Shown: one piece after another, positions 48,223-50,289 of the stretch
How the letters are laid out: every line of letters starts with the position of its first letter
How positions within the stretch are numbered: the stretch's first letter is position 1
Origin: an uncultured Pseudomonadales bacterium
GTDB lineage: Bacteria > Pseudomonadota > Gammaproteobacteria > Pseudomonadales > Azotimanducaceae
Reading direction: 5' to 3'
Length of the DNA: 64,000 bases
Assembly (NCBI GenBank): GCA_958296195.1
Contig: OY282455.1
Coordinates: 372,001 to 436,000, forward strand
Notes under the pieces: generated by a model
Seen by the model: the letters and a program-made list of their open reading frames with translations, nothing else
The model's database searches: none
Told to the model about the DNA's origin: nothing
Program-made: the position numbers and the translations under genes

Positions 48223-48407
48223 ATGACCGAACAATCCCCCCCCCCCCCCCCCCCCCCCCCGAAAATAGAGAAGCGGTCGCCGACGCACCGAAGAAGGTGT
48301 GGTCCAAGCCGTGCATTCTCCGGATAGAGTACGGCACCCTGGAGACGCAAACCGCAAGCGATACCCATCCGGATCCCGAAAACTGTTGTTACTCCCCGAT
48401 GTCATAA
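48223..48407 (+). CDS. RiPP-like precursor peptide, frame interrupted by a 25-C tract
   Basis: ATG 48223 follows a strong ribosome site (GAGGAGACG). After MTEQS there is a run of 25 C (48236-48260). The downstream peptide reads ENREAVADAPKKVWSKPCIL, then RIEYGTLETQTASDTHPDPE and NCCYSPMS, ending at 48407. The KKxWxKPxI pattern is typical of leaders bound by RiPP recognition elements (lasso-type and relatives), and a Thr two residues before SDTHPDPE fits a lasso-like core. With 25 C the ATG and peptide are one base out of frame; 26 or 23 C would join them. The next two genes encode a glycosyltransferase and a sulfotransferase. Lasso cyclase/protease genes are absent here. Confidence 0.6.
48236..48260 (+). 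promoter_or_regulatory. 25-nt poly-C tract (candidate phase-variation switch)
   Basis: An uninterrupted run of 25 C just after the fifth codon of the precursor. Such tracts change length by slippage and switch reading frames in many bacteria. As assembled, it holds the peptide out of frame. A sequencing or assembly artefact in the homopolymer is the main alternative. Confidence 0.7.
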
Positions 48408-48454
48408 CGAAAGAGTCTCCATAGTCCTTCGTCGTATCCCCTCAAGGGTTTCCC

Positions 48455-49399
48455 TTGCCTCTTGACGCAGCTCCTCCATGCGGGTGCGCCGCAAAGGAGA
48501 TCTGCTTCGTGACCGCCACCACGGAGCGCTTCGTGCCGGGCACGCTCGTCGCCCTCGGCTCTTTCCTGAAGCACCACCCCGGCTTCGGCGGCGACCTCGT
48601 CGTCATCCACGACGCGCTGCCCGAAGCCCACCGCCGACATCTCTCGCAGGCCTGCCCCCGCGTGCGCTTCGAGTCCGTCTCCCCCGAATTGCACGACCGG
48701 CTGGCCGCCTTGGGCGCCGCGCGCCCGGAACTCGCCCCCAGGCTGGGGCAGCTCTACTCCCTCGAAGCCTTCCGGCTGCGCGGCTACCGCAAGGTGCTGT
48801 TCTACGACAGCGACGTCCTGTTCCAGGCCCCCGTCGCCGACCTGTTCGACTCGCCCGCAGCGTTGCTGTGCTGCGGCGACGACGTGTTCCTGCGCGGCGG
48901 GCGCCGCGACGCCGCCACCTTCGCGCCCCTGCCTCACGCACGACCGCCCGGCGCGGCAGGCGTGCTCGAACGCACCTTCGGCGCCGGCTTCATGCTCATC
49001 GACGCAGGGCTCGTGGAGGAAGGCTGCTACACGGAGCTCCTGGACCTGGTGGCGCCGCAGTCCTGGTCCGGCGCCGCCACCACCCATACGGACCAGCTCA
49101 TCCTGAACCGCTGCTTCGCCGGGCGCCAGACGCTGGTGGGCTGGACCTACGACTTCGTGGTCCCGATGGCCGAGGCGATTCGTGCGCGAGAGGGCGTCGA
49201 CGCCGGAAACGCCAGGACGCTGCATTTCGCCGGCCCCGTCAAGCCTTGGATGCCGGAAGCCATGCTCCACTGGACGCGGGGCGACCCCAAACGCAAGCCC
49301 GTGGATGCCTTCAGGCTCTGGTATGACGCCTATGTGGGCCGCTTGGCGGACGCTCACGTGCGCAGCGCCGGGGACAGACTCGCCGGGAACAGGGAATGA
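48455..49399 (+). CDS. GT8-like glycosyltransferase
   Basis: A 314-aa GT-A fold glycosyltransferase. KEICFVTATTERFVPGTLVA is the nucleotide-sugar-binding start, and the metal motif YDSDVLF has D118-S-D120. TTHTDQLILNRCF and the C-terminal LHFAGPVKPWMPEAML (HxxGxxKPW) box are those of glycogenin/LgtC-like GT8 enzymes. Start is TTG 48455. It overlaps the sulfotransferase start (ATGA), and the precursor gene lies 48 bases upstream, suggesting that the peptide or a co-product is glycosylated. Higher GC and Arg content than neighbours hint at a foreign origin. Confidence 0.85.
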   Translation: MPLDAAPPCGCAAKEICFVTATTERFVPGTLVALGSFLKHHPGFGGDLVVIHDALPEAHRRHLSQACPRVRFESVSPELHDRLAALGAARPELAPRLGQLYSLEAFRLRGYRKVLFYDSDVLFQAPVADLFDSPAALLCCGDDVFLRGGRRDAATFAPLPHARPPGAAGVLERTFGAGFMLIDAGLVEEGCYTELLDLVAPQSWSGAATTHTDQLILNRCFAGRQTLVGWTYDFVVPMAEAIRAREGVDAGNARTLHFAGPVKPWMPEAMLHWTRGDPKRKPVDAFRLWYDAYVGRLADAHVRSAGDRLAGNRE

Positions 49400-50289
49400 A
49401 CTACGTCCCCGGCGCCGGCCGCGACCTCGCGACCGTGATCGGGACGCATCTGTTCGTCGTCTGTCCGAACAACAGCGGCTCGTCGTTTCTCACCGCCGCG
49501 CTGGGGTCCTGCCGCGCGACGTGGCGCCTGCCGCAGGAAGGCCAGATGATACGTGGCTTCGCCGGGCCGGTGACCTATCGAGCCCTGCGCGGCCCAGGGG
49601 GCGAGCAATGGTTCCCCGGCCTGCTGTGGGCGTCGGAGCGGAGCTGGCTCGACCTCTTCACGCAGCCGAGCAGCTACGACTGGCCGCTCACCCGCAAGGC
49701 GTGGTACTTCCACGCCCGCGCCCATGCCCCGGACGCCTCGGTGTTCGTCACCAAGTCCACCCAGCACCTGCTGCACGCGGAGCAACTGGTCCGGCATTTC
49801 CGCAACGCCCGGTTCCTGTTCATGGTGCGCAACCCCTACGCCGTCTGCGAAGGCATCTGCCGGCGCTACCGGACCCGGCTCCCGCCGCGTTACCTGCGCC
49901 AGTTCGAGACGCCGGGCAGGAGCCTGCCGGCGGCGGCCTCGACCCACGTCGCCAACTGCCTCGCCTGGCAGCGCCGCAACGTCGAAACGTATCGGGACCG
50001 GGGCGTCTTCTTCACCTACGAGACCATGTGCGCGGACCCCGCGGGGGCCGCACGGACGATCCGAACCCTCGTCCCGGAACTGGACGACCTGGTCCTGCGC
50101 CGTCGCCTCAAGGTGAAGGGGTACGACGAAATGCTGACCGACATGAACGAACGCCAGATCACCCGTCTGGACGCCGCGCAGATCGCGGCGTTCAACCGCG
50201 TGTTCCGGGAGCATCGGGACACCCTCGGCTACTTCGGCTACGAGCTCATGGACTGTCCGGACACGTTCGAGCGGCGGCAGGCGATATGA
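49396..50289 (+). CDS. PAPS-dependent sulfotransferase
   Basis: A 297-aa sulfotransferase. The PAPS-binding 5'-phosphosulfate loop is VVCPNNSGSSFLTAAL, and the 3'-phosphate motif is ARFLFMVRNPYAVCEGICRR. KAWYFHARAHAPDASVFVTK precedes them, and the C-terminal part (TYETMCADPAGAARTIRTLV) fits the family. It overlaps the glycosyltransferase by four bases. Sulfotransferases occur next to RiPP-type precursors of the KKxWxKP class, so peptide sulfation is a reasonable inference; the acceptor is unproven. Confidence 0.85.
   Translation: MNYVPGAGRDLATVIGTHLFVVCPNNSGSSFLTAALGSCRATWRLPQEGQMIRGFAGPVTYRALRGPGGEQWFPGLLWASERSWLDLFTQPSSYDWPLTRKAWYFHARAHAPDASVFVTKSTQHLLHAEQLVRHFRNARFLFMVRNPYAVCEGICRRYRTRLPPRYLRQFETPGRSLPAAASTHVANCLAWQRRNVETYRDRGVFFTYETMCADPAGAARTIRTLVPELDDLVLRRRLKVKGYDEMLTDMNERQITRLDAAQIAAFNRVFREHRDTLGYFGYELMDCPDTFERRQAI

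Follow-up and report, generated by a model that had tools for sequence, protein, structure and literature searches.

A poly-C tract in a probable lasso-type peptide precursor gene suggests phase variation of a precursor family in an uncultured Pseudomonadales bacterium

How could a peptide be made when its leader and core lie in a different reading frame from the start codon that precedes them? This question is raised by a short locus within the 64,000-nucleotide stretch analysed here ("the window", positions 372001–436000 of the 4.31 Mb single-contig genome of an uncultured Pseudomonadales bacterium, labelled G000), in which a precursor gene for a ribosomally synthesised and post-translationally modified peptide (RiPP) stands ahead of genes for a GT8 glycosyltransferase and a sulfotransferase. 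Judged from sequence comparison, the locus probably comprises a lasso-type RiPP precursor gene subject to phase variation through its poly-C tract, together with its own tailoring genes. Its parts, in window positions, are as follows.

48210–48222, + strand: Shine-Dalgarno sequence GAGGAG (48210–48215) and spacer, ahead of the ATG at 48223
48223–48235, + strand: start of the precursor gene, ATG ACC GAA CAA T
48236–48260, + strand: uninterrupted tract of 25 C (C25), the putative slippage site
48261–48353, + strand: leader frame with the KKVWSKP motif, W codon at 48300–48302
48354–48407, + strand: core A-SDTHPDPENCCYSPMS and stop codon TAA, with Tyr at 48390–48392 and a C-terminal Ser; the cleavage position is a candidate
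48509–49399, + strand: GT8 glycosyltransferase; its frame is open from TTG 48455, but the start is more likely GTG 48509, which follows AAAGGAG
49396–50289, + strand: sulfotransferase, predicted fold closest to tyrosylprotein sulfotransferases

The frame that starts at ATG 48223 opens with MTEQS, enters the C25 tract and terminates at 48325–48327. Leader and core are read from GAA 48261, out of frame with this ATG, and encode KKVWSKPCILRIEYGTLETQTASDTHPDPENCCYSPMS, terminated by TAA 48405–48407. A preliminary description of the window had correctly picked out the KKVWSKP peptide and assigned it to 48223–48407; because the leader/core frame differs from that of ATG 48223, these positions are not one open frame, and the poly-C tract, which is our main finding, was absent from that description. 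It had also named membership in an ordinary longer protein as an outcome that would speak against a precursor. This did not come true, and we rejected such membership since a 170-residue frame from TTG 47895 has no supported start and the start with a Shine-Dalgarno sequence is ATG 48223. NCBIfam held no family for any of six precursor peptides examined, Pfam gave none over cut-off for the window's peptide, and a promoter and terminator scan of 47700–50600 returned nothing informative.

The same design, consisting of a start codon, a C-run, a leader with W-x-K-P and a short core, is common to 17 genes of the window's genome. All 43 runs of at least 10 C in this genome were read, and 18 of them lie in these 17 genes (the gene at 4254624 has two, C12 and C11, split by a single T). 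Chance placement was rejected, as 0.005 runs are expected in the 60 nt before the 17 leaders; runs of at least 20 C number 18, where at most 0.001 are expected by chance. A profile built from 14 of the run-bearing precursor peptides (A1) has 21 matches below 1e-6 in the genome, including two full-length run-free ones as well as a remnant at window position 52122 and its copy. A1 was derived from genes recognised by their runs, so the share of run-bearing matches in this genome cannot count as independent evidence, but that in other genomes can. One precursor is triplicated in tandem (G000:C1:204401–206049, with C17, C13 and C19), and two of these units are identical at 730 of 730 flanking bases, yet carry C19 and C13.

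Homologues were sought by scanning 84,980 species genomes, a set from which records close to the window's genome may be missing, for C11 followed by WxKP. The scan returned 50 stretches, 16 of them in four chromosomes of uncultured Pseudomonadales or Gammaproteobacteria (OY282519, OY282353, OY282460, OY282379). Within these 16 stretches, 18 of 19 matches are precursor-like, the exception being L184; by eye, the remaining 34 stretches contained no precursor. A1 finds 40 matches below 1e-6 in the four chromosomes, and 23 of the 40 have a run of at least 10 C (13/16 in OY282519, 7/17 in OY282353, 1/3 in OY282460 and 2/4 in OY282379).

As a test of frame, we ranked upstream starts by their Shine-Dalgarno match for 60 of the 61 A1 matches, several of which are copies of one another. 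With runs of at least 10 C, 16 of 40 genes have their top-ranked start in frame (p = 0.40 against one third); with C6–9 five of ten do, and of the run-free genes all ten do (1.7e-5 for an expectation of one third; Fisher p = 0.0007 in comparison with long runs). Leader and core are open after the run, or after the start, in 58 of 60 cases, the exceptions being an early stop in G059 (5621174) and a leader-only remnant (2888064). The run-bearing precursor genes hold the tract inside the gene, where its length, observed from C10 to C33, sets the frame; that tracts vary far faster than their flanks is seen, in assembled consensus, in the C19/C13 pair and in a C25/C33 pair described below. The simplest reading would be that run length drifts through all frames and that genes unable to slip stay open, and at the sequence level this pattern is the signature of slipped-strand phase variation. 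Neisseria, Campylobacter and Helicobacter have poly-C or poly-G phase-variable genes in which, as here, a homopolymer just inside the coding sequence sets the frame; here, in contrast, the family comprises RiPP precursors and switching is predicted from sequence.

Several points tell against this reading. The stop check used in ranking starts spans a shorter stretch in genes with runs, and the ten run-free genes are not all independent because they include the 2888064 remnant and, in G061, two copies encoding one and the same peptide. Run lengths come from assembled consensus and may be off by at least one base. The genome-wide number of runs of at least 10 C is not in excess (29–76 expected from composition), and 25 of the 43, as well as 11 of the 18 runs of at least 20 C, lie outside precursor genes. 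Further points come from the window's own gene, which is part of a duplicated cassette with the following surroundings.

47851–50376, + strand: duplicated cassette of precursor, GT8 and sulfotransferase genes, second copy at about G000:C1:2561844–2564379
47732–47852: dispersed repeat of about 120 bp with its end at the cassette's left border, second window copy at 57165–57285
52122–52217, + strand: leader-only precursor remnant, KKPWSKP followed by TGA

Over about 2.5 kb, two substitutions, two single-base indels and the run distinguish the two cassette copies; the run is C25 in the window and C33 in the second copy (peptide at 2562286). Both are out of frame (OFF) as assembled, in different frames, and the indels fall in the GT8 and sulfotransferase genes of the second copy, breaking both frames there. 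A closely related stretch is found in OY282519, 94.3% identical to window positions 48241–50267 over 2027 bp, although RpoA is 63% identical between the two genomes (58–64% for the four chromosomes, compared with 72–83% for eight genomes of the same genus). There, three tandem precursors (C17, C20 and C20, all in frame) precede intact GT8 and sulfotransferase genes. Horizontal transfer is the natural reading of such a sequence shared with a distant genome.

The C-runs might alternatively be neutral expansions in decaying genes, the window's copy being a pseudogene duplicated by mobile elements whose out-of-frame state has no meaning. The OFF state of both copies, the broken tailoring genes of the second, the nearby leader-only remnant and the 25 runs elsewhere in the genome would all fit such decay. 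We nevertheless consider it unlikely, as leader and core are open in 58 of the 60 tabulated matches, genes of five genomes have their runs in the same position, the GT8 and sulfotransferase frames in the window are intact, and the three tandem homologues of OY282519 (G058) are in frame.

What kind of peptide would be switched? In an alignment of 26 distinct, hand-picked members, reading KKPWxKPxIR...T-x-S-G-x6-E-x3-Y-x-P-x-S, W and P are invariant (partly by construction, the matches having been found by motif) and K, G and E are present in at least 90%. A C-terminal Ser ends 47 of 54 distinct peptides, and 44 of the 54 have a Tyr fourth or fifth from the end. The spacing that would allow a lasso ring is Gly1 to Asp/Glu8 in 32 of the 54, Gly1 to Asp/Glu at position 7 or 9 in 11 more (43 in total), Ser/Ala to Asp/Glu8 in three and another spacing in three; the core in the window allows a ring A1–E9 or S1–E8. 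Among full-length peptides, 32 of 53 have Gly1–Asp/Glu8; in 500 shuffles the mean was 8.4 and the highest count 16, while looser criteria are less telling (43 vs 19.5 and 49 vs 40 in shuffled peptides).

Candidate processing enzymes are encoded elsewhere in the genome. The family NF033535 has 12 matches there at E ≤ 1e-20, one of which (3855135) is probably an ordinary asparagine synthetase, leaving about 11; it was the best NCBIfam match of all four cyclase candidates tested, each below the curated cut-off of 525, and the one candidate scanned in Pfam has Asn_synthase and GATase_7. Twelve of the 21 A1 matches have a lasso-type cyclase candidate no more than 7 kb away. Two PqqD proteins are encoded beside cyclases, both over cut-off for PF05402, and one scores 54 bits against lasso_PqqD_Bac (cut-off 80). 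The lasso B2 protein scores 71 bits against NF033537 (cut-off 33); exactly one B2 occurs per genome in five of five genomes, fused to a nucleotidyltransferase-like protein in four and adjacent to such a protein in the window's genome. One HPrK-like protein reaches 23 bits for Hpr_kinase_C (cut-off 33.3), a second (L101) has no Pfam match, and no HPrK homologue was called beside the window's precursor. Taken together, the WxKP leader, the core spacing, the cyclase-like genes, the PqqD-type RiPP recognition elements (RREs) and the single B2 indicate a putative paeninodin-like lasso system that would act in trans on the window's copy. The preliminary description had put cyclase and protease outside the window and proposed a genome search for them and for an RRE, and candidates for all three were located elsewhere in the genome; its assignment of a RiPP precursor with an RRE-type leader beside tailoring genes is supported as well, and its label "unclassified" may give way to the paeninodin-like lasso type to which the sequence points.

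Counting against this class, five of the 54 peptides (one a leader-only remnant) have no suitable ring spacing. Many peptides read T-x-S/T-G/A, so that the Thr occupies the penultimate leader position only if the core starts at Ser/Thr, and it thus fits a single core register. The tested cyclases and the PqqD protein score below NCBIfam cut-offs, and NF033535 finds matches in six of the 14 control genomes as well. All cyclases are more than 200 kb away from the window's precursor, and cyclisation of its peptide, if any, would therefore occur in trans. One cyclase-like gene (G000:C1:2136015–2137986) is split over two frames and may be broken.

Two sources place these features among known systems. 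The YxxP/WxxP motif is the leader motif bound by the RRE, and WxxP is described as typical of paeninodin-like leaders, paeninodins being called restricted to Bacillota (PMC13381572), although a putative phosphorylated paeninodin has been shown in Proteobacteria (PMC8498205). Bacillota clusters have a nucleotidyltransferase beside or fused to B2 (PMC8498205), and a sulfotransferase gene is noted in paeninodin-type Firmicutes clusters (PMC8498205, PMC13381572). The likeness to paeninodin/pseudomycoidin-type systems covers the WxxP leader, a discrete candidate RRE and B2, a candidate HPrK homologue together with a C-terminal Ser, the B2-linked nucleotidyltransferase and the sulfotransferase gene. 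In contrast to them, the present host belongs to the Gammaproteobacteria, precursors are dispersed and a single B2 would act in trans; there are a GT8 and TPST-like sulfotransferase pair, 2-oxoglutarate-Fe(II) (2OG-Fe(II)) oxygenases, a conserved tail Tyr and a poly-C run after the start codon.

Paeninodins also have linear relatives (PMC13381572), and the present peptide might be tailored without cyclisation, as a linear RiPP resembling the linear polyphosphorylated peptides known from Bacillota. The window's precursor and eight others of the 21 genome matches are indeed more than 7 kb from any of the 11 cyclases. This seems improbable to us given that the other 12 are within that distance of a lasso-type cyclase and have their leader and core pattern in common with the orphans, and that the ring-position Glu is found in at least 90% of the 26 aligned peptides.

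The two genes downstream of the precursor are those that the preliminary description had named, including their overlap of 4 bases (49396–49399), and both frames are intact in the window. The GT8 protein matches PF01501 (2.9e-13), and its best PDB sequence match is glycogenin-1 (E 4.9e-6); its structure model, with a predicted local distance difference test score (pLDDT) of 50, is too poor for a structure search. Glycogenin glycosylates a Tyr; the likeness here lies in the family and the PDB match, and the acceptor and sugar of the window's enzyme are putative. The sulfotransferase matches PF13469 (1.8e-13), has by sequence alone no PDB match better than 0.046, and its model (pLDDT 73) is closest in fold to the tyrosylprotein sulfotransferases TPST1/2, at 12–17% identity. 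This predicted fold would fit the conserved Tyr of the presumed substrate peptide, which is where the resemblance to TPST1/2 lies; the window's protein differs in being bacterial, in its low identity and in having a substrate presumed from sequence. The two genes probably encode a peptide Tyr sulfotransferase/GT8 tailoring pair. Directly after the cassette, a two-gene unit (50565–51152) resembles Phd/RelE-type toxin-antitoxin systems by eye.

In the mechanism that we propose, slipped-strand mispairing would add or remove C residues in the run, and therefore about one third of run lengths would put the start in frame with the leader (ON), the remaining two thirds yielding short peptides in other frames (OFF), so that each cell may express its own random selection from about 17 switchable precursors. 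In the ON state, a PqqD-type RRE would bind the WxKP leader, the single B2 peptidase would cut it off, and a lasso cyclase, acting in trans for the window's copy, would join residue 1 to Glu8/9. The conserved Tyr close to the C-terminus may be sulfated by the adjacent sulfotransferase, a sugar may be attached by the glycogenin-like GT8, and the C-terminal Ser may be phosphorylated where a locus carries kinase-like genes. The result would be a lasso peptide with such modifications, which might, speculatively, serve in competition or signalling between bacteria.

The frame could also be restored during expression, if RNA polymerase slips or ribosomes shift frame on the C-run, giving mixed frames in each cell and no genetic switching. 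Homopolymers can cause transcriptional slippage, and the run encodes proline in all frames, so the N-terminus would tolerate any length. Run lengths, however, differ between otherwise identical copies, which means that genetic slippage does occur, and in our judgement the spread from C10 to C33 is wider than expected of a programmed site, leaving expression-level restoration a quite doubtful account. That the run lengths are assembly errors, and the genes always in frame with a poly-proline N-terminus, is highly unlikely: homopolymers are error-prone in sequencing and 16 of 40 genes are in frame as assembled, but differences of 6 and 8 bases between copies exceed, in our judgement, usual consensus errors, and run-free homologues show by eye no poly-proline stretch in place of the run. 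The idea that the run is required for poly-proline was rejected on the latter observation.

Returning to phase variation, we lean slightly towards a wider interpretation in which the genome holds a horizontally exchanged repertoire of about 20 phase-variable lasso precursors, most with their own poly-C switch and all served by processing enzymes in trans, with each cell of a clone making a different combination of sulfated, glycosylated or phosphorylated peptides. Most known cases of phase variation concern surface structures and restriction systems. If correct, the repertoire would be a chemical analogue of antigenic variation, and natural-product precursors switched singly would mean that secreted chemistry can be randomised between sister cells. 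Precursors out of frame are likely missed by gene finders, and such peptides may therefore be under-counted. A literature search on phase-variable RiPPs, lasso peptides, bacteriocins and biosynthetic clusters found nothing relevant, with most subscription journals and preprints outside its coverage.

Among 58 genomes (the window's included), A1 matches below 1e-6 were found in the window's genome alone, and two weaker matches, in G052 (6.0e-5) and G040 (1.3e-4), belong to frames 489 and 483 residues long. The eight genomes of the same genus (G001–G008) gave no A1 match below 0.01; seven of the eight had no B2 (G006 has one), and seven had no cyclase match at 1e-20 (G003 has two). A search with A2 in 369 genomes of the class returned the window's genome and a marginal place in G269 (4.2e-4) without a nearby C-run.

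Repeats and other C-runs complete the picture. The shortened second precursor that had been noted at 52122 is real, as a remnant with TGA directly after the leader; a copy that is about 95% identical, also with TGA after the leader, lies at G000:C1:2888064. Both copies of the repeat of about 120 bp match one stretch of genomic locus L234 (92.6 and 95.1%), and an element neighbouring the repeat recurs from 51697 on and at 58027–58201. A TonB-dependent-receptor-like gene (by eye; L009, G000:C1:1220652–1222763) is directly upstream of the precursor at 1222938. At L061 and L062 (G000:C1:2126154 and 2132105), C20 and C22 follow an ATG-led short frame and precede two related lasso-cluster genes that are HPrK-like by eye (no Pfam match in the one tested), with no WxKP motif after the run. 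Finally, runs of C31, C22 and C17 at L057, L078 and L064 (G000:C1:1314994, 4176552 and 2353838) lie shortly upstream of other frames that begin much like a signal peptide, contain SPSVTEG repeats (by eye Calx-beta-like) and possibly encode phase-variable surface proteins.
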